Part shown: piece after piece, positions 5,619 through 44,110 of the stretch | Numbering within the stretch: position 1 is the stretch's first letter | Layout of the letters: each line of letters starts with the position of its first letter | Origin: Klenkia terrae | GTDB lineage: Bacteria > Actinomycetota > Actinomycetes > Mycobacteriales > Geodermatophilaceae | NCBI RefSeq assembly: GCF_900491935.1 | Contig: NZ_UEXK01000004.1 | Location: 515,993-578,964, forward strand | Direction of reading: 5' to 3' | DNA: 62,972 nt | The notes under the pieces: model-generated | Told to the model about the DNA's origin: nothing | Database searches by the model: none | The model's input: only the letters and a program-made list of their open reading frames with translations | Made by a program: the position numbers and the translations under genes

Positions 5619-5656
5619 TGGCTCCCCCGTCCGGACTCGAACCAGAAACCGTTCGA
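5619..5656 (-). repeat. Left attachment site: displaced 3' end of tRNA-Asn
   Basis: These 38 bp match the 3' part of the intact tRNA-Asn gene at the right border (44035-44072) with one mismatch, including an unbroken 24-bp run at 5633-5656. The copy covers the 3' side of the anticodon stem, the variable loop, the whole T arm, the acceptor 3' strand and an encoded CCA. The mismatch changes a T-stem pair to a G-T wobble. It has no 5' half, so it is the host tRNA end displaced by integration, not a functional tRNA. Confidence 0.92.
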
Positions 5657-17821: not shown

Positions 17822-19075
17822 TCATCCACAGCGGCCACCCAGCGTGATCCCGCGCTGGGCGAGCCAGGGCGACGGGTCGGTCCTGGTGGCGTACAGGCCA
17901 CCCACGTGGGTCTCGATGTGCAGGTGCGGGCCGGTGGACTGCCCGCGGTTGCCGACCTCGGCGATCAGGTCTCCGGCCTGGACGGCTTCGCCTGCGGTGA
18001 CGAAGAACTGGTTGATGTGCCCGTAGACGGTGATGGTGCCGTCGGGATGCTGGATGTAGACCGCCAGGCCGAAACCGTTGGCGGGGCCGGCGTCCAGGAC
18101 GACGCCCCCGTCCGGGGCGTAGATGGGTGTGCCGATCGGTGCGGCGATGTCGATGCCGTTGTGGTTGGTGCCCCCGCGGGGCCCGTAGCAGGACGTCACG
18201 CGGCCGGCGACCAGATCGCCGCCGGAGCCTGCGACGGCGGCCTGCTGCGCGGCCACGACGGCCGCGGGGTCATCGATGCCCTGCTCGGTCAGGGCGTCGA
18301 TCTGCGCGGCCTGGAGTTGCTGCTGCAGCGTGTCGAGCTCGCCGGCGGCCCGGGTGTAGCTCTGCTGGGCAGAGTCCAGCTGGGCGGCGGCTTGGGCATC
18401 GGCCGCCTGCGCTGCAGCCAGCGCGTCCTGCTGTCGCTGCACCGCCTGCCGGGCGGTGAGGTCAGCGGCTTCCTGTTGGTCCTGCACCTGCTCGAGTGCG
18501 TCGAGGTCCTCGGCGCGGTGGTCGGCCAGCACCGCGAGGGTGGTGGCGCGGGACAGCAGGTCGTCGGGGTCATCGGCCTGCAGGAGCAGGCCGGCCTGCG
18601 CCAGGTCCCCCGAGCCCATGAAGGCGGCGCGGCCGGCCGCGGCCACCTCGGTCTGGGCTTGACCGGTCCGGGCCTGGGCGGCCTGGACCGCGGCAGCAGC
18701 GGCGGTGGGCGCGGCGTTGGCCGCGTCCAGCTCGAGGGTCGCCAGGCGGGTGAGCTCGACGGTGGCTTCGGCTTCGACGGTCGCCTGGTCCACCTCGGCC
18801 TGAGCTGCATCGACCAGGCTCTGCAGTCGTGCTGCCTCCTCGAGGGCGGTCTCCTCCTCTGGCGGGGCAGGGACGGCCGACGAGGACTGGGAGGTACTGC
18901 CCGAGGGGTCCGGTGGCGCCGCTGACGCATGGCCCGGACCGGCCACAAGGGTCAGCGCGAACACCGTCCCGATGGTCGCTGCGGTCATCGGGGACCGTCT
19001 CGTGCTCAGCAGACGGGCGCCGGTGCCGAGGGGGTTCAACCGGTACCGCAGTGGGTTGTCGCGCAGGGTCGCCAC
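17822..19075 (-). CDS. Secreted M23-family (LytM-like) protein with coiled coil
   Basis: The 417-residue protein has a signal-type hydrophobic segment (about residues 30-52), a long Ala/Gln/Glu-rich coiled coil (about 70-265) and a C-terminal M23 domain. The M23 zinc ligands are visible: His-Asn-Gly-Ile-Asp, then Gly-His-Ile-Asn, and Gly-Pro-His-Leu-His-Ile-Glu. It could be an endopeptidase of the peptidoglycan peptide or, like many coiled-coil EnvC-type members, an activator of cell-wall hydrolases. It is closely related at its C-terminus to a second M23 protein of this island. A CTACTA-type dyad lies about 200 bp upstream. Confidence 0.86.
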   Translation of the reverse strand: MATLRDNPLRYRLNPLGTGARLLSTRRSPMTAATIGTVFALTLVAGPGHASAAPPDPSGSTSQSSSAVPAPPEEETALEEAARLQSLVDAAQAEVDQATVEAEATVELTRLATLELDAANAAPTAAAAAVQAAQARTGQAQTEVAAAGRAAFMGSGDLAQAGLLLQADDPDDLLSRATTLAVLADHRAEDLDALEQVQDQQEAADLTARQAVQRQQDALAAAQAADAQAAAQLDSAQQSYTRAAGELDTLQQQLQAAQIDALTEQGIDDPAAVVAAQQAAVAGSGGDLVAGRVTSCYGPRGGTNHNGIDIAAPIGTPIYAPDGGVVLDAGPANGFGLAVYIQHPDGTITVYGHINQFFVTAGEAVQAGDLIAEVGNRGQSTGPHLHIETHVGGLYATRTDPSPWLAQRGITLGGRCG

Positions 19076-19270: not shown

Positions 19271-19289
19271 CTACTACCTCATCTAGTAG
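19271..19289 (-). promoter_or_regulatory. CTACTA dyad, copy 1 (upstream of the coiled-coil M23 gene)
   Basis: A perfect inverted repeat, CTACTA-N7-TAGTAG, 19 bp in total, lies in the 271-bp gap between the copD-ctaG 3' end and the M23 gene. It is one of five island copies and the most symmetrical. It is proposed as a binding site for the island's BlaI-family repressor because such proteins bind short TAC/GTA dyads. No other feature is seen in this gap. Confidence 0.62.
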
Positions 19290-19346
19290 ACGTCACGGTG
19301 CGATCTCGCCCGTCGGGAGAAGACCGGGCGCGGGCCGCGGCCGGGG

Positions 19347-21452
19347 TCAGGGCAACTGGTCTCCGTCGGCACGCTCCAGCCGGTCGGCGGCCGGTCGGGC
19401 ACCCGGGGCCGCCGGGGGCCGGGGCGCTCCCGCCCGCCGCGCCAGGGCGATCGCGGCGAGTGCAGCGCCCAGTCCACCGAGGAGGGCCAGGACGGCAGCT
19501 GCCCGTTGATCGCCGAGCTCTGGGCCTCGCCACGCGGGGTCGATCTCGGCCCACCAGGACGGTGCGAGGACACCGGGCCACAGCAGCAAGGCGGTCGAGG
19601 CCGCCATGTGGACGACGGCCCAGGTCAGGACGCCGCGCACCCGAACCGCACGGCGCAGTCCGGAGTCGAGCCAGGATCGAACGAGGACGACTCCCGCGGC
19701 GGTGGTGATCAGGACCGATACCACGTGGGCGCCGTGGGACCGCAGCGTCAGCTCCAGGACCGGCCCGGCCGCTCCCAGGTAGACCACGACGGCGAACACC
19801 ACCAGGGCCGGGCCAGGCCGGCGGAGGGCCTGGGCGACCTGGCTGCCGGTGAGCGCCTCCACCCATTCAGCAGGGCCGCGGTGGTCATCGCCCCGGGGCG
19901 TCGAGGTGTGCGCTGGGGCGCCGAGATGCTCGGTGAGCAACCTCCCCGGTCCGGCCAGGACCAGCAGGGCCGGCCCGAGCAGGGCCAGCAGGGAGTACTG
20001 CGCCACGTGCGCGGGCATCCAGACCTGCGCGTAGCGGGCCAGCCCGCTGGTGGTGGCCAGCAGCAGCACCGCGGCGGCGGCGAGGAAGCTGACGGTGCGC
20101 CGCACCGGCCAGGGCGCACCGTGACGGATGCGGTGCCGGACCGCCCACAGGTAGGTCACGACGGCGGCTGCGACCAGGAGCGGGAACAGCGGGTCGGGGT
20201 AGGGCTCCCACAGCTGGGGCCACCACCGTCCGCGACCTGGGTCCGGGGGGAGGGCGAAACCGAGGGTGTCGAAGCTGCTGCCTTCTTCCTGCCCTGGCTG
20301 GTCGGTGGGCCGCGGGGTGGGGGTGCGCGACAGGGAGACCGCGACCCCGATCGTGGTCGCGAAGCCGAGCACTTCACCTGCGGCCAGCCGCCGGAACGCT
20401 GTTGGCTTGCCGTCCGCCAGCGCCGGGAGGGTGCGACGTCGGTGTTCCCACCCGATGACCCCGAGCACGATCAGTGCCACGGTCTTGGCCAGGACTTGGC
20501 GGCCGTAGTCGGTCCCGGTGAGATCGGACGGGCCCGACAGCCGGGTCGAGGCGGTGAGGACCCCGCTGACCGCGATCAGGGCGACCAGGAACGGCGCGGC
20601 CGCGCTGAACCGGGTGGCCGCGGCCTGCAGGGTGCCTGCGGGCACTCGGCGGATCAACAGGAGGGCGAGGACCCCCCCGGCCCAGGCCAGGACCCCGATG
20701 ACGTGCAGGGCAAGGCCGGAGACCGCGGCTTGGTGACTGCCTGATCCGGCCGCGTGTCCGGTGAACACCGGCGGGAGGCCGGCCAGCAACGCCAGCAGCA
20801 GCAGCGCCAGGCTCCCGCCGGTGGTCAGCACTCTGCGGGCCCCGATCGCCACCGCCGCGGTGAGGACCGCGACGAGTGCCTGGGCTTGTCCCTGGGGGAT
20901 GGTGGTCAGGAAGGACCACAGTCCTCGGCCGCTGACGACCTGCAGGTCGGTACCCAGGAAGTCTGCGAGCTGCACCGGGGCCGAGGCAGCCGCGCTCACC
21001 GCCCACAGTGCGGCCGGCCACGCCGACATCCGGGTCCATCGGTGACCGGCCACGCTCATCCGCCGATGGCCGGGGGCCAGCAAGGCTGCAGCGAGCAGGC
21101 AACCGACGGTCGCCACCGCGGCCAGGTCGGCGATGACCTTGACGGCGGGGATGGCCCACGTCACGGCGGCCGAGGCAGTCGGCAGACCGGGCAGCGCGAC
21201 CGACGAGAGCGACCCGGACGACGCCAGGAGCAGCAGGGTGACACCGACGCCCAGCACCGCAGCCGCGGCCAGGAGCACGGCAGTCGCTGCGGGGCCGGTG
21301 ACGGCGGCGGATCCCGGTCGGTCGGCCCCGGTGGGCGTGTGGGACCTCCTCGGTGCGACCGGCGACGGGTCCGGTCCGGCGTCGGCTGCCGGGCGGGCGG
21401 GACCGCCGGTTACCGGTGCGGTCGGGCTGGGCTCGTGGGGTGCTGGTGTCAC
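19347..21452 (-). CDS. CopD-CtaG fusion (copper import/oxidase copper-insertion membrane protein)
   Basis: This is a 701-residue polytopic membrane protein. After a proline-rich cytoplasmic N-terminus (about 1-55), residues 60-390 form a CopD-type domain with eight or so helices and a Thr-Gly-His-Ala motif. Residues 410-680 match the caa3-type CtaG domain, which helps deliver copper to cytochrome oxidase. The fusion is known in actinobacteria. Here it follows copC with a 4-bp overlap and lies downstream of ctaD, so a copper route from CopC through CopD-CtaG into the CuB site of CtaD is a reasonable inference. Confidence 0.9.
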   Translation of the reverse strand: MTPAPHEPSPTAPVTGGPARPAADAGPDPSPVAPRRSHTPTGADRPGSAAVTGPAATAVLLAAAAVLGVGVTLLLLASSGSLSSVALPGLPTASAAVTWAIPAVKVIADLAAVATVGCLLAAALLAPGHRRMSVAGHRWTRMSAWPAALWAVSAAASAPVQLADFLGTDLQVVSGRGLWSFLTTIPQGQAQALVAVLTAAVAIGARRVLTTGGSLALLLLALLAGLPPVFTGHAAGSGSHQAAVSGLALHVIGVLAWAGGVLALLLIRRVPAGTLQAAATRFSAAAPFLVALIAVSGVLTASTRLSGPSDLTGTDYGRQVLAKTVALIVLGVIGWEHRRRTLPALADGKPTAFRRLAAGEVLGFATTIGVAVSLSRTPTPRPTDQPGQEEGSSFDTLGFALPPDPGRGRWWPQLWEPYPDPLFPLLVAAAVVTYLWAVRHRIRHGAPWPVRRTVSFLAAAAVLLLATTSGLARYAQVWMPAHVAQYSLLALLGPALLVLAGPGRLLTEHLGAPAHTSTPRGDDHRGPAEWVEALTGSQVAQALRRPGPALVVFAVVVYLGAAGPVLELTLRSHGAHVVSVLITTAAGVVLVRSWLDSGLRRAVRVRGVLTWAVVHMAASTALLLWPGVLAPSWWAEIDPAWRGPELGDQRAAAVLALLGGLGAALAAIALARRAGAPRPPAAPGARPAADRLERADGDQLP

Positions 21453-22048
21453 GCCTGGCGACGGCGGAGGAGGACGGGGCCGCCGATCCCCAGCAGGGCG
21501 ATCAGCGCGACGAGCCCGGCCACCACGCCACCGGAGATCCCGCCGTCGTCCTGAGCAGCTGCGGTCTCCACCGCCGACTCGGTGTCCGTTCCCTCGACCC
21601 CGCCGGACGGTGCGGCACTCGTGGGGGCTGCCGGGCCCTCGGAGGTGGTCGCGCTGCTCTCGCTGCTGGGCGCCGCTGCGGGTGCGTAGGTGAACCCGTA
21701 GGTGCCCTGGATCGTGTGCCCGTCGGCGGACACGATCCGGTAGGAGACCCCGTAGTCGCCGGCCGCGGTCATCGCCACCGGTTGGGAGACGACATCACCG
21801 TCCACGGTGGGGTCGGCGGTGACGACGTCGGCACCGGCGGCATCCAGGACGGCGATCTGGGCGAACCCGGGCTGCACTCCGTCGGAGAACGTGAGCTCGA
21901 GGGTGTCGGGCAGCTGGGTGACCGTGCTGTCGACGGCCGGGGTGGCCGATTCCAGGTCGCTGTGCGCCTGGGCGGGACCGCCGGTGAGCACTGCTGCGAC
22001 CGCTGCTGCGGCGATCACCAGCACGCGGTGCCGCAGTGGGCTGCCCAT
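21449..22048 (-). CDS. copC: CopC-domain copper-binding protein, membrane anchored
   Basis: The 199-residue protein has a signal peptide (1-28) whose cleavage after Ala-Gln-Ala would leave His29 at the mature N-terminus. That is the characteristic Cu(II) ligand of CopC. A second ligand histidine lies in Ser-Ala-Asp-Gly-His-Thr-Ile. A Ser/Thr/Pro-rich linker then leads to a C-terminal membrane helix with an Arg-Arg-Arg tail, so the domain is tethered outside the cell. It is coupled to copD-ctaG and lies 166 bp downstream of ctaD on the same strand, probably in one operon. Confidence 0.9.
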   Translation of the reverse strand: MGSPLRHRVLVIAAAAVAAVLTGGPAQAHSDLESATPAVDSTVTQLPDTLELTFSDGVQPGFAQIAVLDAAGADVVTADPTVDGDVVSQPVAMTAAGDYGVSYRIVSADGHTIQGTYGFTYAPAAAPSSESSATTSEGPAAPTSAAPSGGVEGTDTESAVETAAAQDDGGISGGVVAGLVALIALLGIGGPVLLRRRQA

Positions 22049-22214
22049 CGGCGTGCGGCGGGACCTCTGCCGGTGACGACGGGCATGTGGGGCGGTGGGG
22101 CTCGGGTACACGGAGGAACTCCTGAGTGGGTGACTGCGCACGGCTGGGAGCGCGCCGAGCTGTGCGTCTTCCACCATGGTGGTCGTCGGTGGTGCCGGTG
22201 TGGTTCCCAGCTGC

Positions 22215-23966
22215 TCAGGTGGGGTCGGGGTCGTTGGGGCCGGCGCGCTTGCCGGTGCCCTCGAGGACTTCGCTGGCGTAGGTGCCGTGCTTCCCGCCGG
22301 CGTGGGCCTCGCGGTCCAGGCGGTCCCGCAGGTGGGGGTAGTGCAGCTCGAAGGCGGGGCGTTCGGAGCGGATGCGGGGGATCTCGGTGAAGTTGTGCCG
22401 CGGCGGGGGGGACGACGTGGCCCACTCCAGGGAGTTGCCGTGGCCCCAGGGGTCATCGCGCAGGGCGAGTTGGCCGTACTTCCAGGACTTCACCACGTTG
22501 TACAGGAACGGGATGGTGGAGGCCCCGAGGATGAAGGACCCGATCGTGGAGATCGTGTTCAGCGTGGTGAACCCGTCGGTGGGCAGGTAGTCGGCGTAGC
22601 GGCGGGGCATGCCCTGGTTGCCCAGCCAGTGCTGGACCAAGAACGTGGTGTGGAACCCGATGAACGTCAACCAGAAGTGCACCTTGCCCAACCGCTCATC
22701 CATCATCCGCCCGCACATCTTGGGGAACCAGAAGTAGATGCCGCCGTAGGCGGCGAACACCACCGTCCCGAACACCACGTAGTGGAAGTGGGCGACCACG
22801 AAGTAGGAATCGTTGAGCTGCCAGTCCAGCGGCGGGGACGCCAGCAGCACCCCGGTCAACCCACCCAGCAAGAAGGTGACCAGGAACCCCATCGCAAACA
22901 GCATCGGGGTCTCGAACGTCAACTGCCCGCGCCACATGGTGCCGATCCAGTTGAAGAACTTGATCCCGGTCGGCACGGCGATCAGGTAGGTCAAGAAGCT
23001 GAAGAACGGCAGCAGCACCGCCCCGGTGGCGTACATGTGGTGCGCCCACACCGTCAACGACAACGCCCCGATCCCGATGATCGCGAACACCATGCCCTTG
23101 TAGCCGAACAACGGCTTGCGGGCGAACACCGGGATGATCTCGGAGATGATCCCGAAGAACGGCAACGCGATGATGTAGACCTCGGGATGGCCGAAGAACC
23201 AGAACAGGTGCTGCCACAGCATCGGCCCACCGTTGGCCGCGGAGAACACCAACGCACCCAGGTGCCGGTCGGCCAGCAACGCCAACAACGCCGCAGTCAG
23301 GATCGGGAACGCCAACAAGATCAAGATGCTGGTGACCAGCGAGGACCACCCGAAGATCGACATCCGGAACATCGTCATCCCCGGCGCCCGCAGACACACG
23401 ATCGTGGTGATGAAGTTGACCGCACCCAAGATCGTGCCCAGACCACTGACGGCCAGCCCGGCGATCCACAGATCAGCCCCGGCACCGGGTGAGTTCGTCA
23501 CATCCGACAACGGCGAATAGGCATACCACCCGAAGTCCGCAGCACCACCAGGGGTGGCGAACCCCGAGATCATGATCAACCCGCCGAACAGGAACAACCA
23601 GAACGAGAACGCGTTCAACCGCGGGAACGCCACATCCGGGGCACCCAGCTGCAACGGCAGGATCAAGTTCGCGAACGCGAAGAACAACGGCGTCGCGAAG
23701 AACAACAACATCACCGTGCCGTGCATGGTGAACAACTGGTTGTACTGCTCGTTGGACAAGTACTGCAACCCCGGCCGGGCCAGCTCACCACGCATCAACA
23801 TGGCCATCAGGCCACCGACCATGAACCACGTGAACGACACAGCCAGGTACATCAAGCCGATCGTCTTGTGATCAGTGGTCCGCAGCAGCATCGACAGCCG
23901 CGAACCCTTCTCGGCCACGTGCACCGGACTGGGACGGCTCACGATCGGAGCGGGGGCGATGGTCAC
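22215..23966 (-). CDS. ctaD: Cytochrome c oxidase subunit I
   Basis: This is a full-length aa3-type oxidase subunit I of 583 residues with twelve membrane helices. All cofactor ligands are visible: the heme a histidine in Thr-Met-His-Gly-Thr, His-Pro-Glu-Val-Tyr for CuB with its cross-linked tyrosine, Trp-Ala-His-His-Met for CuB, and Ala-His-Phe-His-Tyr for heme a3 and heme a. It starts at a GTG after AGGAAGAGG. Subunits II, III and IV are absent from the island, so it is either an alternative subunit I that uses chromosomal partners or a stress-specific replacement. The open frame upstream to 25280 is only antisense to blaI/M56. Confidence 0.95.
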
Positions 23967-24018
23967 CGGACCTCTTCCTCGGACGTACGGGCCGGCGGTC
24001 CGGGGACCGCCCCTCTGA

Positions 24019-24037
24019 CTGCTACGGCACGTAGTAG
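24019..24037. promoter_or_regulatory. CTACTA dyad, copy 2 (between ctaD and blaI)
   Basis: CTGCTAC-GGCAC-GTAGTAG differs from perfect symmetry at one position. It lies 53-71 bp upstream of the ctaD start and in the divergent region ahead of blaI, so it could control both the ctaD-copC-copD unit and the regulator itself. Confidence 0.65.
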
Positions 24038-24167
24038 ATGATGGCACGACGAGCGGGTGCCGGGGCGACCCACCGTCGGCACCGTCCCGGCACACTGTGG
24101 GGACCACTGGACCCACCAGACCCCGCAGCCCGCTGCCGCGGACGACATCGAGCCGAGGAGGACGACG

Positions 24168-24536
24168 GTGGTCAGACCCTTCGGCGACCTGGAAGCCGCG
24201 GTCATGCAGGTGCTCTGGGACGGCGCCCAGCCGGCCACCGTGCGTGATGTGCTGCGCCGACTGCAGACACCCAAGCCGCTCGCCTACACGACCGTGATGA
24301 CCGTGTTGGACAACCTGCACCGCAAGGGCGAGGTCGTCCGCGAGATGGACGGACGCGCCTGGAGCTACGCCCCGGTGCGCTCGCGGGCCCAGCACTCGGC
24401 GGCCCTGCTCCAGGACGTCCTGCAGCACGCCGGCGATCCGCAGGCGGTGCTGATGCACTTCGTGGCCGATCTGGGCCCCGACGAGGTCAGCCAGCTCCAG
24501 CAGGCCGTGCAGGCTGCGCAACGGTCGGCCCCGTGA
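24168..24536 (+). CDS. blaI: BlaI/MecI/CopY-family repressor
   Basis: The 122-residue protein has the BlaI winged helix: Gly-Asp-Leu-Glu-Ala-Ala-Val-Met-x-Val-Leu-Trp, then Thr-Val-Arg-Asp-Val-Leu, then [10 protein letters not shown] with Leu-His-Arg-Lys-Gly. A helical dimerisation tail follows. It lacks the C-terminal Cys cluster of CopY, so direct copper sensing like CopY is unlikely. Release from DNA probably depends on the membrane protease encoded next. The GTG start follows GAGGAGG, and the end overlaps the M56 gene by 4 bp. It is proposed to bind the five CTACTA dyads. Confidence 0.92.
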
Positions 24537-25492
24537 CCGCGACCTGGATCCTGGTCGCGCTGGGCGTGACCCTGCTGGCCCTCGGCCCGCGCCTCCGGGG
24601 CACCGCCTGGATGGACAACTCACCGCGCCTGGGCATCGCCATGTGGCAGGCGCTGTGCCTGTCGGCGGTGGCCGTGCCCGTGTTGATCGGGCTGACCCTG
24701 CTGATCCCGGCGACGGCCTGGGTGGCCGGCCTGGCGGCTCTGGTGCAGGCATGCGCCCTGAGCCTGCAGCAGGCCTACGGGTTCCACGGCGACGCCCTGG
24801 AATCGATGCTCGGCGTCGTGCTGGTCGGCACGGTCGTGGTGTGGACAGCCACCCGGTTCGCCCAGGACGCCTGCGGCACCCACCGCGAGCGGGACCGGGT
24901 ACGCCGCTCGGTGGCCAAGGTGAGCACTGCGCACCCGACGTTGGACATGCACGTCGTGGACTCCCCGACGGCTGCGGCGTTCTGCATCCCCGGTCGCTCG
25001 TCCCGTGTCCTGGTGACCGCCGGTGCCATCGCGGCGTTGAGCCCGGAGGAGCTCGACGGCGTGCTGGCCCACGAGCGCGCCCACCTCCGTGCACACCACC
25101 ACCTGGCGGTGTCGGTGGCCGGGTCACTGTCCCGCGCCTTCCCCTGGGTGGGCCTGTTCGCGACCGCGGCGACCCAGACTGCGCGGTTGGTGGAGCTGGC
25201 CGCCGACGACAGCGCTGCACGGACGGTCCCCCGGGTCGTCGTCGCCTCGGCCATCGTGCGGCTCGCGGAGATGCGGGCACCGGCCCCTGCCCTGGCCATG
25301 GCCGATTGCTCGACGCCGGGGGTGACGGTCACCCGGGTGGGCCGGATGCTCAGCCCGGGCCGGCCGTTGCGGAGCAGCCGTCTGGGTCTGGTGATCAGCG
25401 CGCTGGTCCTGGTGCTGAGCACACCGGTGGCCGTGGCCGTGGCTCCGGCGGCAGCCGCAGCCATCACACACCTGTGCAGCGGGGTCAGCTGA
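24533..25492 (+). CDS. M56-family membrane metalloprotease (BlaR/MecR-like)
   Basis: This 319-residue membrane protein has four main hydrophobic segments and a cytoplasmic zinc-protease motif, His-Glu-Arg-Ala-His, near residue 180 (HExxH). A Glu in Val-Glu-Leu-Ala-Ala-Asp-Asp downstream probably completes the site. Unlike BlaR1 it has no extracellular penicillin-binding sensor, so the signal is unknown and not obviously a beta-lactam. Paired BlaI/M56 genes generally work by signal-triggered cleavage of the repressor. The context here suggests copper, respiratory or envelope redox stress. Confidence 0.9.
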
Positions 25493-25509
25493 ACCATCAA
25501 CTGCACCCT

Positions 25510-25528
25510 GTCCTACTGTGGCTAGTAG
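25510..25528 (+). promoter_or_regulatory. CTACTA dyad, copy 3 (upstream of the cupredoxin gene)
   Basis: GTCCTAC-TGTGG-CTAGTAG keeps the right half-site intact and 4 of 6 bases (CCTA) in the left. It ends 28 bp before the cupredoxin GTG, in the 64-bp gap after the M56 gene, so the cupredoxin may have its own BlaI-type control rather than only read-through. Confidence 0.58.
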
Positions 25529-25556
25529 CAGGGAGACCGGTGGAGAGGGGTTGGTG

Positions 25557-26015
25557 GTGAGCCGCACGGTGCTGACCCGACGGTCCTGGTTGGCTGCGGT
25601 GGCGCTGGGTGCGTTGACCCCGGCACTGGGGGCGTGCTCTGGTGGCGCGGACCGCTCGGCGGGCTCCCAGGCCGGTGGCCGGACGACCCGGTCCGCGGCC
25701 GTGAGCACCGCCCCCGACGGCACGCAGGACGTGGTGGTGACCGTCGGGGACGACTACGTGTTCCTGCCCGATGCCTTCACGGTGTCCCCCGGACCGGTGC
25801 GTCTGACCCTGGTCAGCCAGGCCGCCCAGCTCACGCACAACTTCGTGTTCAGCCCCGGGCAAGGTCCTCGGACCATCACCGAGCAGATCCCGATCGTGGC
25901 GCCCGGTGACGAGGCGACCATGGAGTTCACGGTCACCGACCCGGGCGAGTACGGGTACGAGTGCTCCTTCCACGCGGCCCTGGGCCAGGTCGGCGTGATG
26001 ACGGTCGCTGGATGA
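25557..26015 (+). CDS. Cupredoxin-domain lipoprotein
   Basis: The 152-residue precursor has an Arg-rich N-terminus (Leu-Thr-Arg-Arg-Ser-Trp) and a lipobox Leu-Gly-Ala-Cys that predicts a membrane-anchored lipoprotein. The cupredoxin fold has a complete type I copper ligand set: His near 93 (Thr-His-Asn-Phe), then Cys, His and Met near 134, 137 and 147 in Glu-Cys-Ser-Phe-His...Val-Met. It could carry electrons or copper to the oxidase. The second of two adjacent GTG codons was chosen for spacing from GAGAGG. Confidence 0.88.
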   Translation: MSRTVLTRRSWLAAVALGALTPALGACSGGADRSAGSQAGGRTTRSAAVSTAPDGTQDVVVTVGDDYVFLPDAFTVSPGPVRLTLVSQAAQLTHNFVFSPGQGPRTITEQIPIVAPGDEATMEFTVTDPGEYGYECSFHAALGQVGVMTVAG

Positions 26016-26035
26016 GCCCCCGGACAGCCGGCCCG

Positions 26036-26797
26036 TCAGGCAGGTAGGTCGACTCCGCGCTCGGCCAGCCACGAGGCGGGGTCGAGTCGGGGTCCGTTCA
26101 TACCCCCTTCGTGCACCTCGAAGTGCAGGTGCGGGCCGGTGGACTGGCCGCGGTTGCCCACCAGGGCGATGGGATCTCCGGCCTCGACGACGTCGCCGGC
26201 CTGCACCTGGATGGAGTCCATGTGCCCGTAGACGGTCACATCTCCGTTGTCGTGCTGGATGTAGACCGCCAGACCGAATCCGCTGGCCGGACCCGCGCGC
26301 AGCACGACACCGTCCGCGGCGGCGACCTCCTGGGTGAGCATGGGGGCAGCGAAGTCCAGTCCGTAGTGCCTGGTTCCCCACCGCGGCCCGTAGCCGCTGG
26401 TCAGTCGCCCCTGCACCGGCAGGACGGCCTGGTTGGCCGCCTCGGCTCGGGCTGCCCGGGACGCCGCGACGGCCTGCAGCCGAGCGGCTGCTTCGGATTC
26501 GCTGATCTGCACCCTGGCGTCGGCAGGCGCTTCCTCGTCGACGTGGGCGAGGGCGCCGGCGGCAGCACTGACGTCCTGGACCTGGGCTGGGCGCCCCCCC
26601 GCGCCGGCGCCCAGGGTCAGGTTGGCGACCACCGCCCCGGCGACGACGGCGACGAGCAGTCCTGCTGCCCGGTGGCCGGCCGGCGGCCGCAGACCGGTCC
26701 CGCGGCGGCGACCGGTCCCCGTTGCCCGACCAACCCCACGGGAGCTCCCACCCTCGGCGCTGGGCCGTGCGGGCGCACTGGCGTCACCGATCGTCAT
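26036..26797 (-). CDS. Second M23-family protein, single-pass membrane
   Basis: The 253-residue product has a basic N-terminal tail, one hydrophobic segment (about residues 45-65), a short helical linker and a C-terminal M23 domain. All metal ligands are present: His-Tyr-Gly-Leu-Asp, Gly-His-Met-Asp and Gly-Pro-His-Leu-His-Phe-Glu. It shares long identical stretches with the coiled-coil M23 protein of this island (Gly-Leu-Ala-Val-Tyr-Ile-Gln-His; Val-Gly-Asn-Arg-Gly-Gln-Ser-Thr-Gly) but lacks the coiled coil. The ATG at 26797 has a GGGGAG ribosome site; an ATG seven codons upstream does not. A CTACTA dyad sits just upstream. Confidence 0.88.
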   Translation of the reverse strand: MTIGDASAPARPSAEGGSSRGVGRATGTGRRRGTGLRPPAGHRAAGLLVAVVAGAVVANLTLGAGAGGRPAQVQDVSAAAGALAHVDEEAPADARVQISESEAAARLQAVAASRAARAEAANQAVLPVQGRLTSGYGPRWGTRHYGLDFAAPMLTQEVAAADGVVLRAGPASGFGLAVYIQHDNGDVTVYGHMDSIQVQAGDVVEAGDPIALVGNRGQSTGPHLHFEVHEGGMNGPRLDPASWLAERGVDLPA

Positions 26798-26818
26798 CCC
26801 GCCACTCCCCACGTCCAT

Positions 26819-26837
26819 CTACGATGTAGGTTAGGAG
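26819..26837. promoter_or_regulatory. CTACTA dyad, copy 4 (divergent M23 / ccsB unit)
   Basis: CTACGAT-GTAGG-TTAGGAG contains a perfect short palindrome (CTAC-GAT-GTAG) and is 16/19 identical to copy 5 ahead of dsbA. It lies 21 bp from the M23 start on one side and 70 bp from the next + strand gene, so it could govern both directions. Confidence 0.58.
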
Positions 26838-26906
26838 ACTAGGGCCGGCGAGGCCCCGGGACGCGCAGCTGGAGCTCGACACGCCATAGGACGGAGGTGC
26901 CGGGGT

Positions 26907-27260
26907 ATGTCGACGGTCCACGGACCTGTGGTCCTCGGTGGTGGGTGGACCGGCGCCGCTGTCGTCGGTGCGCCACGGACGGGGCTGTCCGCGGTCGGCG
27001 CCGCCCACGGGTCGGTCGAGGCCCGGTCGGAGCTGTTCGCTCCCCGGGCGTCCGACGGCGAGGTCGCGCTGGATGGCGGCACCGCCACCGCTGCCCGCCT
27101 CGGTCCGGCGCCGGAGTACGTGCCGAGCGCCCTGGGGATCGGCGCGGCGATCTGGTCGGCGGTGCGCCGACGCAGGGGAGCACCTGTCGGTGTCCCCACC
27201 ACCCCTGGTTCTGCGATGACCACCGGATCCCACCCTCCCGAGGAGATGACCACCCTGTGA
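26907..27260 (+). CDS. Hypothetical protein coupled to ccsB
   Basis: This 117-residue protein of unknown family is rich in Gly, Ala and Pro. It has no convincing signal peptide or membrane helix beyond a short hydrophobic stretch near residues 72-85 followed by Arg-Arg-Arg-Arg. Third-position GC is high in the central part, and the ATG follows GGAGGTG. Its stop overlaps the ccsB start by 3 bp, as coupled genes do. I recognise no homolog. It could be a small accessory factor of cytochrome c maturation or merely a leader frame, but the coupling favours a real gene. Confidence 0.55.
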   Translation: MSTVHGPVVLGGGWTGAAVVGAPRTGLSAVGAAHGSVEARSELFAPRASDGEVALDGGTATAARLGPAPEYVPSALGIGAAIWSAVRRRRGAPVGVPTTPGSAMTTGSHPPEEMTTL

Positions 27261-28297
27261 CCACCGAAGCCCTGGCCGAGCTGTCCGATCAGCTGTTCAC
27301 CACCGCCGTCGCGGCCTATGCGTTGGCCGCGCTGGCCTTCGCAGCCGAGCTGGCCTTCGGTCGGCGGAGTGCCGCGGTCGCCGTGGCGGTGACCAGCGGG
27401 CACGCAGGCGCCCCCACGGCGGCGGCGGTCGCCGCGCGCTCGCTGACCGCGACGGCGCTCACCGCCACCCCACCGGCACCTGGCAGCGGCCCCGCTGGCG
27501 TGGCCGGGGTCGGTGACCCGCGGGACGAGCCGGCCTCGACCCGCCGGCGATGGGCCTGGAGCACCCTGGGTCTGGCGCTGAGCGGCCTGGGCGCGGTCCT
27601 GCAGTTCGGGGTGCTGGCGCTCCGCGGGTTCGGCACCGGCCGGGCGCCGTGGGGCAACATGTACGAGTTCGGGACCGCGGCGGTGCTGATCGGTGTGCTG
27701 GCCTACCTCGTGACGGCGCTGCGGGTGCCGGTGATGCGGCACATCGGTCTGTTCGTCATCGGGCCGGTGGTGGTCAGCCTCGTGCTCATCGGGTTCTTCC
27801 TGTATGCCGAGGCCGGCCCGCTGATCGCCGCCCTGCGGTCGGACTGGCTGATCGTCCACGTCTCGGCAGCGATCTTGTCCTTCGGCGTCTTCCTGGTCAG
27901 TGCGACGGCCAGTGCGCTGTTCCTGGTGCAGCGTCGACAGGAGAGCCGCCCGCGGTCGACCCCGGGGCTGTGGGATCGGCTGCCGTCGGCGGTGGCGTTG
28001 GATCGCGTGGCGCACCGCGCCGCGGTGTTCGCCTTCCCCATCTGGACGTTCGCGGTGGTCGCCGGCGCGATCTGGGCGGAGAGCGCCTGGGGTCGGTTCT
28101 GGGGATGGGACCCGAAGGAGACGTGGGCGTTCATCTCCTGGGTGGCCTACGCGGCCTACCTGCACGCCCGCAGCACTGCGGGGTGGCGTGGAGCTCCTGC
28201 GGCGTGGATCAACCTGGTCGGGTTCGGCTCCCTGGTGTTCAACCTGCTGTTCGTGAACCTCGTCTCCACCGGTTTGCACTCCTACGGCGGTGTCTGA
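27257..28297 (+). CDS. ccsB: Cytochrome c biogenesis protein CcsB/CcsA-like (heme handling)
   Basis: The 346-residue polytopic protein carries the tryptophan-rich WWD heme-handling motif (Trp-Gly-Arg-Phe-Trp-Gly-Trp-Asp-Pro-Lys-Glu-Thr-Trp) near residue 280 and membrane-flanking histidines. In system II it acts with ResB to bring heme across the membrane for attachment to apocytochrome c. ResB is not encoded in the window. Residues 40-95 form an unusually long Ala/Pro-rich cytoplasmic insertion after the first helix. The GTG start overlaps the previous stop. Confidence 0.9.
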   Translation: MTTEALAELSDQLFTTAVAAYALAALAFAAELAFGRRSAAVAVAVTSGHAGAPTAAAVAARSLTATALTATPPAPGSGPAGVAGVGDPRDEPASTRRRWAWSTLGLALSGLGAVLQFGVLALRGFGTGRAPWGNMYEFGTAAVLIGVLAYLVTALRVPVMRHIGLFVIGPVVVSLVLIGFFLYAEAGPLIAALRSDWLIVHVSAAILSFGVFLVSATASALFLVQRRQESRPRSTPGLWDRLPSAVALDRVAHRAAVFAFPIWTFAVVAGAIWAESAWGRFWGWDPKETWAFISWVAYAAYLHARSTAGWRGAPAAWINLVGFGSLVFNLLFVNLVSTGLHSYGGV

Positions 28298-28652
28298 GGG
28301 GATCCCCGGCCGCCGCCGGCGGCGGGAGCTACGGCCGTAGTGGGCCGTAGTGGGCCGTAGTGGACCGTCGCGGGCGGTGTCGTGATGGGGTCGGTGCGCA
28401 GGTGGGGTCGGGGCGACGACCGGGTGGCTGGTGGGTCTCGTGCTGGGCCACCAGCGCTCGGTGCCGGTGCAGACCTGACCGTCGCCGACGGGGTGCACCC
28501 TGGACCGCGGGCACGGCGGCCCGACGGGCATACCCGGCGGACCACCGGCAGGGCAGCCAGGTCCCGGGTGCTCCCGGCCCCCCGAGCCCGCCGGGGGCGT
28601 CGTCTGTGCGGTTGGTCCCACGGGGTCCCGGCAGCGAGGGGCCGGAGGTCCA
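28298..28652. repeat. Gene-free convergent gap with palindromes and a 10-bp tandem repeat
   Basis: Between the convergent ccsB and ccdA genes, a GC palindrome (GGGGATCCCC followed by CCGCCGCC-GGCGGCGG) probably acts as a terminator. A 12-bp palindrome CTACGGCCGTAG (28329-28340) overlaps the start of three 10-bp tandem units CCGTAGTGGG (28335-28364; the last ends in A), and a degenerate fourth follows. From about 28380 to 28652 I see no gene or further structure. Confidence 0.55.
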
Positions 28653-29540
28653 TCAGACGACCGAGGTGCCCAGTCCCGTCGTGGCCAACCACGCGCGGGC
28701 CCAGATCATGAGCGCGTCCCAGGTGCCGGTGACCATCAGGAGGCCCAGGGTGATGAGCACCATGCCTCCGACCCGGCTGACGGTGCGGGCGTGCGCGCGG
28801 GCGAACCGGGACAGCGTCAGCGCCCGGCGGGCCCCGGTGGCGATGAACAGGAACGGCACACCCAACCCGAGGCAGTAGGCCAGTGCGAGGATCGCACCGC
28901 GGGTGGCGGAGGCTTCGCTGTAGGCCAGCGCGTTGACCGCGGACAGGGTGGGGCCCAGGCAGGGGGTCCACCCCAGGCCGAAGACCATGCCCAGCAGTGG
29001 CGCGCCGGCCAACCCGGCCGGCGGCCGGCGGTGCACGCGGCGTTCACGTTGCAGCCAGCTCAGCCCACCCAGGAACGCCAGTCCCATGACGACGGTGACC
29101 GCGCCCATCACCCGGGTGATGACCGGCGCCCACTCGAGCAGCAGGCGCCCCAGCCCGCCGAAGGCGGCCCCGAAGGACATGAACACGACCGTGAAGCCGG
29201 CCACGAACAGCACTGCACCGGCGAGCACGCGGCCTCGACCGGTGGCCACCTGCGGCGGTGGTCGGTGGACCGGGGGTGCGCCGGGAGCCCGTGCCCGCCC
29301 GGCCGGCCCCGCCGCCGCGACCGGCACCGAGGTGGTCACCGAGGGCGCATCGGCCTGGGAGGCGGCCGCGGCGGTCTGGGTGCCGCTGAGGCCGGCGACG
29401 TAGCCCAGGTAGCCCGGGACCAGTGGCAGCACGCACGGGGAGGCGAAGCTGATCAGGCCGACCAGTGCGGCCACGGCGATGGCGATGACCAGGGACCCGT
29501 CGGTGATCAGTCCGGCGAAGAGGTCGCCGAGGTCAGTCAT
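28653..29540 (-). CDS. ccdA: CcdA-family thiol-disulfide electron carrier
   Basis: This is a membrane protein of 295 residues with the two conserved CcdA cysteines, one in Ala-Ser-Pro-Cys-Val-Leu-Pro-Leu-Val-Pro-Gly-Tyr and one in Gly-Trp-Thr-Pro-Cys-Leu-Gly-Pro. They shuttle reducing power from cytoplasmic thioredoxin outward. A Pro/Ala-rich insertion of about 45 residues (about 55-100) after the first helix enlarges it relative to minimal CcdA. Its start overlaps the end of the TlpA-like gene, so the reductant path CcdA to TlpA is encoded as a coupled pair. Confidence 0.92.
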   Translation of the reverse strand: MTDLGDLFAGLITDGSLVIAIAVAALVGLISFASPCVLPLVPGYLGYVAGLSGTQTAAAASQADAPSVTTSVPVAAAGPAGRARAPGAPPVHRPPPQVATGRGRVLAGAVLFVAGFTVVFMSFGAAFGGLGRLLLEWAPVITRVMGAVTVVMGLAFLGGLSWLQRERRVHRRPPAGLAGAPLLGMVFGLGWTPCLGPTLSAVNALAYSEASATRGAILALAYCLGLGVPFLFIATGARRALTLSRFARAHARTVSRVGGMVLITLGLLMVTGTWDALMIWARAWLATTGLGTSVV

Positions 29541-30171
29541 CGGGCGGACTCGTCGTGGGCGTGCCCGAGGGGTCCTCGGCCAGCAGCTCCTGCAGGATCG
29601 CGCGGAGGTCTTCCTCGGCGACCGCGCTCACGTAGACGCCGGCCACGCGGTTGTCCCGATCGATGAGGATCGTGGTGGGGACGACGTTGGCGGGGAATCC
29701 GCGGAAGGTCAGCGCGATCTCCCCGGAGGGGTCGAACAGCGACGGGTAGGTGATCGCGAAGTCGTCGGTGAAGGCCTGGGCGAGCTGGCGTTGGTCGCGG
29801 ACGGCGACACCCAGGAAGGACACCCCGGCGTCGGCGACATCGGTCGAGACGGCCTGGAACTCGGGGGACTCCACCCGGCAGGGAGCGCACCAGGAGCCCC
29901 AGAAGTTGACCACGACGATCTGCTCGGCCAGCGAGCTCGACGCGAAATCGCTGCCGTCGAGGAGTTCGCCGGCGAAGGCGGGCGCGGTCTGCCGGGACTC
30001 GGCGGGGATCAGCTCCCCGGCGGGGGTGGCCGCGGTGAAGTCGAAGTCGCCGCCCCCTCCCCCGGAGCTGGGGATCCCCCCGTCGGTGGAGCAGCCGGCA
30101 ACCGCCAGCGCAGCGACCGCTGCCAGCCCGGTCTTCAAGACCGTCCGACGGGTGGCTCGGGACTCAGCCAA
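29533..30171 (-). CDS. resA: TlpA/ResA-type thiol-disulfide lipoprotein
   Basis: The 212-residue protein has a Tat/Sec-like N-terminus with Arg-Arg, a lipobox Val-Ala-Gly-Cys, a Gly-rich linker and a thioredoxin domain. The active site is Trp-Cys-Ala-Pro-Cys near residue 94, with cis-Pro in Val-Val-Pro-Thr-Thr. ResA-like proteins keep apocytochrome haem-site cysteines reduced for ligation. The start is a TTG placed after GGAGGACC and overlapping the end of the VKOR gene by 8 bp; no ATG or GTG fits. It acts outside the membrane and is probably recharged by CcdA. Confidence 0.9.
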   Translation of the reverse strand: MAESRATRRTVLKTGLAAVAALAVAGCSTDGGIPSSGGGGGDFDFTAATPAGELIPAESRQTAPAFAGELLDGSDFASSSLAEQIVVVNFWGSWCAPCRVESPEFQAVSTDVADAGVSFLGVAVRDQRQLAQAFTDDFAITYPSLFDPSGEIALTFRGFPANVVPTTILIDRDNRVAGVYVSAVAEEDLRAILQELLAEDPSGTPTTSPPDD

Positions 30172-30832
30172 GGGTGGTCCTCCAGAAGGTCCAGAACCGC
30201 ACCGCGATGAGCGTGGCGATGCCGAGCAGCCACACGGTGACCACGACGGTCTGACGCCGGTGCAGGACGGCGATCACCGGTCGGGCGGCTGGGGGTAGGC
30301 GATGGGCGGTGGCGGTGAGGTTGCGCGCGGTGACCGCGGTGAACAGTGCGATGACCACGACCCACACGACCATGCAGTAGGGGCACAGCGCCCCGATGCG
30401 GTACAGGCTGGCTTGGACCAGCCAGTGCACGAACACCACGCCGGCGCTCACCCCGACCTGCAGGCCGGCCCAGAACCAGCTCGGCAGGCGTGCGCCGCCG
30501 GCCAGGGCGGCGCCGGCCACGAGGACGGTCGTGAAGCCGACGAGCCCCAGCAGTGGATTGGGGAATCCGAACGCGTCGGCTTGTGGACTGCCCATCACCG
30601 ACCCGCAGGACAGCACCGGGTTGATGCTGCAGGTGGGCACGTAGCTGGCCTCGGTGAGCAGGCGGAACTTCTCCACGGCCAGCACGAACGCCGCCAGCAG
30701 GCCCAGCGCACCACCGACGACGAGGCCGGCCCCCAGCCGCCGGTCTCCCCCGGAGGTGTGCAGTGGGGGCCTGTCGGGCTGGTCGCGGGCCGGCGCTGGG
30801 CGGGCGTCCGGGGTGCCGGTCGAGGTCGTCAC
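30164..30832 (-). CDS. Vitamin K epoxide reductase family protein (DsbB-like)
   Basis: This 222-residue membrane protein has four to five helices and the VKOR cysteines: Cys-Ser-Ile-Asn-Pro-Val-Leu-Ser-Cys (loop pair) and Cys-Pro-Tyr-Cys (quinone-proximal active pair). In actinobacteria VKOR replaces DsbB and reoxidises a DsbA-like partner using menaquinone. The partner is encoded 4 bp upstream in the same direction. The additional N-terminal 30 residues are proline-rich. Together they make an oxidative branch running opposite to the CcdA/ResA reductive branch. Confidence 0.92.
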   Translation of the reverse strand: MTTSTGTPDARPAPARDQPDRPPLHTSGGDRRLGAGLVVGGALGLLAAFVLAVEKFRLLTEASYVPTCSINPVLSCGSVMGSPQADAFGFPNPLLGLVGFTTVLVAGAALAGGARLPSWFWAGLQVGVSAGVVFVHWLVQASLYRIGALCPYCMVVWVVVIALFTAVTARNLTATAHRLPPAARPVIAVLHRRQTVVVTVWLLGIATLIAVRFWTFWRTTLG

Positions 30833-30836
30833 CGGA

Positions 30837-31481
30837 TCACTCGTCGACGGCGGCGGCGACGGCGTCGATCAGCTCCTGGGCCGAGGCGACGGTCAGCTGC
30901 TCCCCGTCGAGGAAGAACGTGGGTGTGCCCTGCACGCCGAGCGCCAGACCGTCGTCCCGGTCAGCCAGGACGCGGTCGAGCGTGGCGGGGTCGGCGACGG
31001 CGTCGTCGTAGGCGTCCATGTCCAGACCCAGGTCGCTGGCGAACTCGCGGAACAACGGGGCTCGCGAGGTCTGCTGCTCACCCCACTGCGGCTGGGTCTC
31101 GTACATCCGCTGGTACATGGCCTCGAACTGGCCCTGCTGCGCTGCGGCTTCCACGGCGACGGCTGCGTTCTGGGCGTTGAAGTGCCCCTCGACCGGGAAG
31201 TACCGGGCGACGAAGGTGACCTGACCGGCGTAGTCCGCACGCAGCTGCTCCACCACCGGGTAGGCCGCCAGGCAGGACTCGCACTCGAAGTCCAGGAACT
31301 CCACCAGGGTGACGTCGCCGCTGGTGGCGGTGTCCAGCCGGTGGCTGTCCGCGCGGACGACGCGACTGTCGGCGTCGGCGGACGATGTGTCTGGTCCGCT
31401 GCCGAAGATGAGCAGTGCACCGGTGACGACGGCTGCGAAGACGGCTACCAGCAGGACCGAGATCTTCGTGTTGGACCGCAG
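30837..31481 (-). CDS. dsbA: DsbA-like membrane-anchored thiol oxidase
   Basis: The product has about 214 residues: a short basic N-terminus, one membrane anchor (about residues 9-28) and a DsbA fold. The fold carries Phe-Glu-Cys-Glu-Ser-Cys (CxxC near 68-71) and cis-Pro in Gly-Thr-Pro-Thr. It should introduce disulfides into exported proteins and be reoxidised by the VKOR encoded next. No ATG, GTG or TTG lies in frame between the upstream promoter region and the anchor. A CTG following GGAGGAGTCACC is the best start. A CTACTA dyad lies 45-63 bp upstream. Confidence 0.87.
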   Translation of the reverse strand: MRSNTKISVLLVAVFAAVVTGALLIFGSGPDTSSADADSRVVRADSHRLDTATSGDVTLVEFLDFECESCLAAYPVVEQLRADYAGQVTFVARYFPVEGHFNAQNAAVAVEAAAQQGQFEAMYQRMYETQPQWGEQQTSRAPLFREFASDLGLDMDAYDDAVADPATLDRVLADRDDGLALGVQGTPTFFLDGEQLTVASAQELIDAVAAAVDE

Positions 31482-31525
31482 GGTGACTCCTCCATCGGGA
31501 ACGGCCGTGTGCCACGGCCCGGGCT

Positions 31526-31544
31526 CTACTATGCAGGTTAGGAA
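31526..31544 (-). promoter_or_regulatory. CTACTA dyad, copy 5 (upstream of dsbA-vkor-resA-ccdA)
   Basis: CTACTAT-GCAGG-TTAGGAA keeps one perfect half-site and a weaker second one, and resembles copy 4 closely. It lies in the divergent region between dsbA and the cadC-like gene, on the dsbA side, upstream of a four-gene thiol-redox operon. Confidence 0.58.
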
Positions 31545-31567
31545 ATCCCCGATCAACACCCACGTTC

Positions 31568-31587
31568 CAACAGACGTTGTTCTGTTG
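31568..31587 (+). promoter_or_regulatory. Operator of the CadC/CmtR-like repressor
   Basis: This is a perfect inverted repeat, CAACAGA-N6-TCTGTTG (20 bp), located 55-74 bp upstream of the cadC-like start. It is distinct from the neighbouring CTACTA dyad, so the two divergent operons seem to carry separate control. Binding by the ArsR-family protein is inferred. Confidence 0.68.
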
Positions 31588-31641
31588 TAGCGTGCCGTGC
31601 ATCCGGTCCGTCCTCCTCGGACCCGTCGAGAGGATCTGCCG

Positions 31642-44034: not shown

Positions 44035-44072
44035 TGGCTCCCCCGTCTGGACTCGAACCAGAAACCGTTCGA
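44035..44072 (-). repeat. Right attachment site within tRNA-Asn
   Basis: This 38-bp segment forms the 3' half of the functional tRNA-Asn and is repeated at 5619-5656. It was supplied by the incoming element and restores a complete tRNA. The 24 bp at 44049-44072 are identical in both copies, so the crossover lies there or in the adjoining 13 bp. Confidence 0.92.
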
Positions 44073-44110
44073 TTAACAGTCGAATGCTCTGCCAATTGAG
44101 CTACGGGGGA
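44038..44110 (-). tRNA. tRNA-Asn (GTT)
   Basis: This is a complete 73-nt cloverleaf followed by an encoded CCA. The acceptor stem TCCCCCG pairs with CGGGGGA, the D arm is GCTC...GAGC, the anticodon stem TTCGA/TCGAA holds loop CTGTTAA with anticodon GTT, and the T arm is TCTGG-TTCGAGT-CCAGA. It is the integration target of the island and remains intact because the element carries the 3' half. Confidence 0.96.

Follow-up and report, generated by a model that had tools for sequence, protein, structure and literature searches.

A 19-base dyad repeated across an island of Klenkia terrae points to a BlaI/M56 regulon for copper, oxidase and thiol-redox genes

Five dyads and the genes that they precede

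The window analysed here is a stretch of 62,972 nucleotides from the 4.8 Mb genome of Klenkia terrae (contig NZ_UEXK01000004.1, positions 515,993 to 578,964). It carries a gene pair for a BlaI repressor of 122 amino acids (24168..24536, plus strand; Pfam Penicillinase_R, 5.2e-26) and an M56/M48-like membrane protease without a sensor domain (24533..25492, plus strand; HExxH at residues 180-184), the two genes overlapping by 4 bases. Around this pair lie five copies of a 19-base dyad, searched for with the consensus CTACTA-N7-TAGTAG and assigned to no strand. An earlier note, made from the sequence alone, had read these sites as the mark of a BlaI/M56 regulon. All five were confirmed by sequence match at the positions it gave, and its gene names agree with Pfam; its phrase ‘five-copy’ is right as to number, only one site being perfect and the other four departing from the consensus by 1, 2, 2 and 2 bases.

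Dyad 1 (19271-19289), the exact match, precedes an M23 peptidase gene (17822..19075, minus strand; Pfam M23) whose true start possibly lies further in, and a counterpart stands upstream of the same gene in the relative loci L045-L047. Dyad 2 (24019-24037, one mismatch) separates blaI from the divergent ctaD, which encodes cytochrome c oxidase subunit I (22215..23966, minus strand; Pfam COX1, 3.8e-164) and is accompanied on that strand by copC (21449..22111; Pfam CopC) and a gene for a CopD-CtaG fusion (19347..21452; Pfam CopD and Caa3_CtaG). Dyad 3 (25510-25528, two mismatches, with a second register at 25513-25531) precedes a cupredoxin gene (25518..26015, plus strand; Pfam Copper-bind) that perhaps starts near 25557. 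Dyad 4 (26819-26837, two mismatches) lies between the gene for a second M23 peptidase (26036..26818, minus strand; Pfam M23) and a divergent pair comprising a small open reading frame of no Pfam family (26907..27260, plus strand) and the gene for a CcsB-like cytochrome c assembly protein (27260..28297, plus strand; Pfam Cytochrom_C_asm). Finally, dyad 5 (31526-31544, two mismatches) precedes a minus-strand unit encoding DsbA-like (30837..31490; Pfam Thioredoxin_4/DSBA), VKOR (30164..30832; Pfam VKOR), ResA-like thioredoxin (29533..30171; Pfam AhpC-TSA/Redoxin) and CcdA-like (28653..29540; Pfam DsbD_TM) proteins, and has a divergent arsR-cadA unit on its other side.

The earlier note had found no site ahead of the ars, cbi or cad units. 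None of them has a private site with two or fewer mismatches; the region of dyad 5 is shared by dsbA and arsR-cadA, so that for cad the statement requires dyad 5 to act towards dsbA and not towards cad. A separate inverted repeat, CAACAGACGTTGTTCTGTTG (window 31560-31590), lies between dyad 5 and arsR and by eye resembles an ArsR operator.

Apart from the five dyads, with dyad 3 in its two registers, the window holds no match at up to two mismatches. Allowing three gives nine matches where 0.92 are expected and where the maximum in 100 shuffles was four; the remaining three, at 2623, 60486 and 61540, have three mismatches each and lie outside the island described below. The KACANNTGTA box of the CopY type is absent from all five dyads, and the bases flanking the 19 carry little information in a profile built from consensus-chosen sites.

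The dyad accompanies two classes of BlaI

In a family sample of 112 Geodermatophilaceae genomes, matches to the window BlaI were divided into class A, to which the window protein belongs (33 genomes, at least 61% identity), class B (8 further genomes, 48-56%) and a core class C (about 35-45%), present in most of the 112. The dyad, with at most one mismatch, occurs in all 41 genomes with a class A or B BlaI versus 7 of the 71 without; the p-value of this contrast overstates the evidence because related genomes are not independent. Within genera class A has a patchy occurrence (in the organism's own genus, 5 of 9 genomes), by which this problem of shared ancestry is lessened, not removed. Counted as sites at the same threshold, the dyad appears 202 times in the class A and B genomes and 8 times in the rest of the sample.

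In the organism's own genome, 21 places match at up to two mismatches, and 11 of these (10 without the overlapping register) fall in two clusters that together make up 0.72% of the genome, the cluster bounds having been drawn after the sites were seen; the other ten lie outside both. The second cluster (L005, L006) is 239 kb from that of the window and has a BlaI-M56 pair and five dyads of its own, placed upstream of its blaI, in the gap between ccdA and ccmA, in the gap between genes for a multicopper oxidase and a ResA-like protein, before an M23 gene and before ctaG. Similar roles are thus repeated in the two clusters by different genes.

Beside a BlaI dyad in L005 (10687-18166), we also observed a System I-like cytochrome c maturation set in this actinobacterium, namely an ABC ATPase, CcmB, a CcmC-like protein, CcmE, CcmF, a TPR protein read as CcmH and a thioredoxin-like CcmG. 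The window island carries the CcsB-like protein where the second cluster has this set. Lipoprotein maturation genes accompany these metal genes as well, since a lipoprotein signal peptidase gene (Peptidase_A8; window 34824-35360) lies behind the cadmium transporter gene and Lgt and Lnt genes lie in the second cluster.

Spacing and half-sites are specific

Specificity was assessed in 40 relative loci from the family (750 kb; 22 of 36 class A and 18 of 20 class B matches), with the own genome besides. When the spacing between half-sites was varied from 0 to 16 at up to one mismatch, the 40 loci gave 96 sites at N7, 10 at N4, 21 at N10 and 0-1 at every other spacing; N4 and N10 are the spacings that arise when the CTA repeat slips by 3 bases in register. 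Eighty-nine other permuted palindromes yielded at most 2 sites each.

The same preference extends beyond the family. The outside set consisted of 65 named loci (Pseudonocardiaceae, Nocardioides, Kribbella, Streptomyces and others), the 80 named loci being the best 80 of at least 556. Across spacings of 0-14 these 65 gave 161 sites at N7, 11 at N4, 32 at N10 and 0-5 at the others, and the next best permuted palindrome gave 16 versus 161. The dyad is present, at up to one mismatch, in 53 of the 65. Intergenic positions account for 129 of the 161 sites and for 22% of the bases, and 97 sites have a called gene start within 300 bases.

Sites stand before copper, oxidase and disulphide genes

We next considered which genes in the relative loci have a site within 450 bp upstream, against an expectation of 11%. 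Such a site precedes the genes for DsbA (6/6), CtaD (5/5), CtaG (8/9) and CcmA (3/4), and those for M23 peptidases in 19 of 35 cases (M23b 10/16, M23a 9/19). For blaI itself the count is 23 of 40 overall and 18 of 22 in class A. Lower values were obtained for CsoR (6/14), cupredoxin (5/12), ResA (11/28), Lgt (2/6) and ArsR (1/7). No site lies within 450 bp upstream of CcdA (0/28), CopA (0/12), CDF (0/11), VKOR (0/7) or CadA (0/5) genes, several of which are operon-internal.

Outside the family, the 121 first genes include, among those that could be labelled, BlaI (9), multicopper oxidase (6), ResA (6), DsbA (3), CopA (3), CDF (3) and others. A scan of 68 of the 79 unlabelled ones returned ResB (7), methyltransferases (7), NlpC/P60 (4), LGT (3) and DsbA-like proteins (2). 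One genome of the same order, G149 (L196-L200), has five dyads at up to one mismatch; one of them precedes the gene for cytochrome bd subunit I (Pfam 3.8e-151) and another the gene for heme o synthase. These scattered G149 dyads are a candidate respiratory regulon of a core BlaI. Others in this genome stand before a lipoprotein gene adjoining carD and close to genes for small membrane proteins of no known family.

Operator and recognition helix in the BlaI paralogues

The window BlaI scores 91.7 bits against Penicillinase_R (cut-off 22.6), covering positions 2-114 of the 115-position profile, and its best structural match is PDB entry 2g9w, reached through an alignment in which one of 40 rows (L005) is in the wrong frame. 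We take 2g9w to be the mycobacterial Rv1846c. At positions 40 and 44 of the recognition helix, Tyr and Met occur in 22/22 class A, 18/18 class B, 65/65 outside and 7/7 same-order core proteins; the corresponding pair in class C is Leu and His, in 20/20.

This division is matched on the DNA. All 20 class C loci have an operator-like dyad of their own at blaI, TTCTAC-N5-GTAGAA, which shares with the class A/B dyad the CTA-N7-TAG core and its spacing and differs from it mainly at base 3. A search at up to one mismatch found no class C dyad in the 40 class A/B loci, in either cluster of the own genome or in the 65 outside loci, and no A/B dyad in the 20 class C loci. Among the seven same-order core blaI genes, which we infer to come from Mycobacteriaceae, four have a TACGAC-N5-GTAGTA-like site at the gene start and one a site of the CTACTAC type, and the other two have none there at the threshold used. 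Operator base 3 and the recognition helix thus appear to change in step between paralogues, an argument that rests on the reciprocal absences and on the five of seven same-order sites because the search pattern itself had set base 3 of the A/B operator, which tells against any stronger use of it. The core family BlaI is ruled out as the repressor acting at the dyad, the core having TTCTAC-N5-GTAGAA and 64 of the 71 genomes without class A or B lacking the dyad. In the own genome, the gene for the class C protease (L012, 2740-3140) enters a low-complexity G-rich stretch containing a run of undefined bases, probably an assembly fault.

A sensor-less protease with two conserved cysteines

A protease lacking the beta-lactam sensor domain had been predicted, and the sequence bears this out. 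The protein is 319 amino acids long, Pfam finds M48/M56 only, with no penicillin-binding sensor domain, and the chain ends at the last membrane helix. His180, Glu181 and His184 of the HExxH motif are invariant in 40 of 40 family proteases, and the motif is present in 120 of 121. An AlphaFold2 model (pLDDT, the per-residue confidence measure, 84.7; pTM, the global one, 0.82) places helices 2-21, 31-57, 88-130 and 281-317 around the catalytic domain. The best solved structures found with Foldseek are Ste24/ZMPSTE24 and BlaR1 (probability 0.80-1.00, E 0.02-0.28, none below 0.001); for the BlaR1 entries alone the ranges are 0.80-0.99 and 0.04-0.28.

Two cysteines set this protease apart. Cys74 (codon checked, 24752..24754, plus strand) lies in the loop between transmembrane helices 2 and 3, a low-confidence region of the model in which most residues have a pLDDT below 50, and Cys315 (codon checked, 25475..25477, plus strand) lies where the last membrane helix ends. 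In the family set Cys74 is invariant (40/40) and the tail cysteine is found in 38/40. Across 101 accessory proteases, 40 from the family and 61 from other families, the loop cysteine occurs in 94, the tail cysteine in 94 and both in 90, a count that includes the L127 protein, whose reading frame looks wrong; 10 of the 65 outside loci yielded no paired protease. None of the 20 class C core proteases has either cysteine. Among the exceptions, L064, L065, L134 and L149 have the loop cysteine only, and L128, L146 and L147 have neither. Those with the tail cysteine only (L139, L145, L158 and L171) are all from Nocardioides, and three of the four have adjacent cysteines (CC) in the tail, which fits a need for two thiols. 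A further island, L201 (G401 C49:150000-168000), holds two BlaI-M56 pairs, many dyads and CcsB-, M23- and Lnt-like genes, and in both of its proteases cysteines lie close to the loop as well as in the tail.

If the catalytic domain is cytoplasmic, as cleavage of BlaI would require, both cysteines are extracytoplasmic. A study of staphylococcal BlaR1 describes a first extracellular loop, EL1 (residues 56-96), that protrudes beside the sensor, with the sensor following the last helix, and proposes EL1 exclusion as the carrier of the signal (PMC9834060). The loop between helices 2 and 3 and the place after the last helix correspond to these, so that the cysteines would occupy the two signalling positions of BlaR1. 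By this analogy, we infer that the two cysteines are a candidate copper or thiol sensor.

The window cluster lies on an integrative island

An integrase gene (42729..43976, minus strand; Pfam Phage_integrase) is 59 bases from a tRNA-Asn gene (44035..44110, minus strand; ARAGORN), the attachment site at the right end of the island. A near-repeat of the 3' end of this tRNA gene (5619..5656, plus strand; 97% over 38 bases, 24 of them exact) marks the left end, 38.4 kb from the tRNA gene. In a relative with neither a class A nor a class B BlaI (G078), the flanks are about 2.9 kb apart versus 38.9 kb here. The integrase beside the tRNA gene, the flanking repeat and the apparent absence from a relative point to an integrative element in a tRNA gene. 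Together with the patchy distribution of class A, they bear out the description of the module as mobile. The island also holds genes for CbiM/CbiQ, Cad and a P-type ATPase, ArsR- and MerR-type regulators, an SBF-family transporter and an IS110 transposase.

Discussion

At the level of sequence there is strong support for placing copper, oxidase and thiol-redox genes in a BlaI/M56 regulon; it comes from co-occurrence, from the spacing, from the conserved position of sites at promoters and from the paralogue's sister operator. The best explanation of the observations as a whole, and to our minds a very probable one, is that an accessory BlaI and its sensor-less protease control the dyad promoters in response to a copper or thiol signal. 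The dyad would be the operator of the accessory BlaI (24168-24536) and very likely also of the second-cluster paralogue. BlaI dimers bound there would repress up to seven promoters, whose predicted targets comprise copper delivery and oxidase assembly (CtaD, CopC, CopD-CtaG and cupredoxin), cytochrome c assembly (the CcsB-like protein), disulphide chemistry (DsbA, VKOR, ResA and CcdA), two M23 peptidases and blaI itself. Once activated, the BlaR1-like protease would cut BlaI, and the activating signal may be the extracytoplasmic copper or thiol-disulphide state, read by the two cysteines. Operator specificity, co-occurrence, regulon content, cysteine conservation and mobility were established by computation; for the direction of regulation and for the signal we rely on the example of BlaR1/BlaI and on the nature of the target genes.

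Several observations weigh against this account. Four of the five window dyads are imperfect. A site lies near only 5 of 18 class B blaI genes, and few sites precede the genes for DUF305 (1/21), CcsB (4/12) or Lnt (2/13). Outside the family, 64 of the 161 sites lack a called gene start within 300 bases, as judged by a crude gene caller, and the dyad at up to one mismatch was not found in 12 of the 65 loci, among them all seven from Streptomyces. At 21.9 bits the protease stays below the Pfam M56 cut-off of 31, and it scores better as M48 (45.2 bits, cut-off 20.3). In a phylum sample, the association is weaker, the dyad occurring in 29 of the 43 genomes whose BlaI match is strong (E up to 1e-18, a line set after the list was seen) versus 75 of 253 without such a match, and in 61 of 123 with any match versus 43 of 173 without; this sample backs the link to BlaI only moderately. 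Taken at face value, a reversed-pattern control is also unfavourable, with 305 matches versus 21 real ones in the own genome at up to two mismatches and 34 versus 3 at up to one. We set it aside in favour of the spacing and permutation controls because the reversed half-sites (GATGAT...) form a different, codon-like pattern.

The seven Streptomyces loci (L153, L162, L165, L169, L175, L179 and L181) are without a dyad and without a paired protease found by the search used. BlaI relatives there possibly have another partner or another operator.

The earlier note's claim of one repressor is not supported. With a second BlaI-M56 pair and its five dyads 239 kb away, and with half-site profiles that are nearly equal between class A-only and class B-only genomes, cross-regulation is to be expected. 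The class B BlaI might even be the chief repressor at the window sites, or share that role, in a single cross-wired regulon and not a self-contained island, a reading that we take seriously while leaning somewhat against it. Residues 40 and 44 are identical in the two classes, and the dyads of both clusters lie near M23, CtaG, ResA-like or CcdA, and copper oxidase or cupredoxin genes; yet class A genomes without class B keep their dyads, and class A blaI has a dyad of its own in 18 of 22 loci.

It is unlikely that the inducer is cell-wall damage or a beta-lactam, as for BlaR1, with the copper and thiol genes as wall-stress cargo. The protease fold is BlaR1-like, and genes of the M23 and NlpC/P60 types repeatedly follow the dyad. 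However, the 319-residue protease has no penicillin-binding domain, the identified targets are mostly copper, cytochrome and disulphide genes, and the cysteine pair is absent from the core paralogues. Binding of the dyad by another co-travelling regulator, be it CsoR, ArsR or some further protein, is very improbable: CsoR and ArsR-type genes do share these islands, but 64 of 71 genomes without class A or B lack the dyad (their CsoR and ArsR content being unchecked), and operator and BlaI recognition residues co-vary between paralogues. The notion of chance matches or a dispersed repeat, for which the four imperfect dyads and the ten places elsewhere in the genome might speak, is ruled out by the shuffles and the spacing and permutation controls, and is contradicted by the co-occurrence and by flanks that hold little information beyond the 19 bases.

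The preferred account, an accessory BlaI released by a sensor-less protease, has close relatives among known systems. The staphylococcal pairs BlaR1-BlaI and MecR1-MecI likewise combine a repressor with an M56 protease of the same membrane layout, and according to the BlaR1 study it is BlaR1 itself that cleaves BlaI, with the first extracellular loop involved in signalling (PMC9834060). They differ in having a beta-lactam sensor, absent here, and a TACA/TGTA operator (PMC7253601) in place of CTA-N7-TAG. CopR-CopY has a repressor homologous to the window BlaI and also targets copper genes; CopY, according to the same source, binds metal itself through C-terminal CXC motifs and recognises the DNA site RNYKACANNTGTMRNY (PMC7253601). 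Unlike CopY, the window BlaI has an odd-length operator and no cysteine anywhere in its 122 residues, and hence no C-terminal CXC motif. Direct copper sensing of the CopY type by BlaI is thereby ruled out.

The earlier note had cited TAC/GTA dyads as BlaI targets; the window dyad is not the TACA-N2-TGTA box of CopY and MecI but is of the odd-length CTA-N7-TAG type. For BlaI_0696 of Clostridium thermocellum, PMC8457756 gives the operator GTCTAT-N5-ATAGAC, supported by DNA affinity purification sequencing (DAP-seq) and gel shift, with the core and spacing of the window dyad; its regulon, as described there, is small, with three operons and other target genes.

The mycobacterial pair BlaI (Rv1846c) and BlaR (Rv1845c) has the same Tyr/Met recognition positions, seen via 2g9w, and a partner protease that is also sensor-less. 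It is a core gene pair, in contrast to the island-borne pair of the window. In seven same-order genomes, the core proteases have no loop or tail cysteine by position (the sequences being unaligned), whereas the window protease has both. Binding of mycobacterial BlaI at cytochrome bd and ATP synthase promoters is reported in PMC5473688, and the G149 dyad before cytochrome bd parallels the former. How sensor-less BlaR proteases, the mycobacterial one included, are switched on is called unknown in the same paper (PMC5473688).

We give an even chance to a broader proposal, in which a two-cysteine switch has replaced the beta-lactam sensor, a disulphide or jointly bound Cu(I) gates BlaI proteolysis, and the result is a portable copper-respiration-disulphide regulon across Actinomycetota. 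Among the literature matches listed, with most subscription journals outside the search, there is no report of this regulon or of a cysteine-gated M56 protease.

In Klenkia terrae, a BlaI/BlaR-family pair thus appears to have been rewired from antibiotic sensing by means of a repeated 19-base switch and possibly a cysteine pair, tying a metal-resistance island to the control of respiratory assembly genes. The system would represent a class whose likely sensor consists of no more than two cysteines, whose operator code is clear and whose target set hints at the signal, so that activation of sensor-less BlaR proteases becomes directly testable in environmental soil bacteria. More broadly, it suggests that actinobacteria use BlaI-M56 pairs generally to switch envelope and respiration genes, and not beta-lactamase alone.

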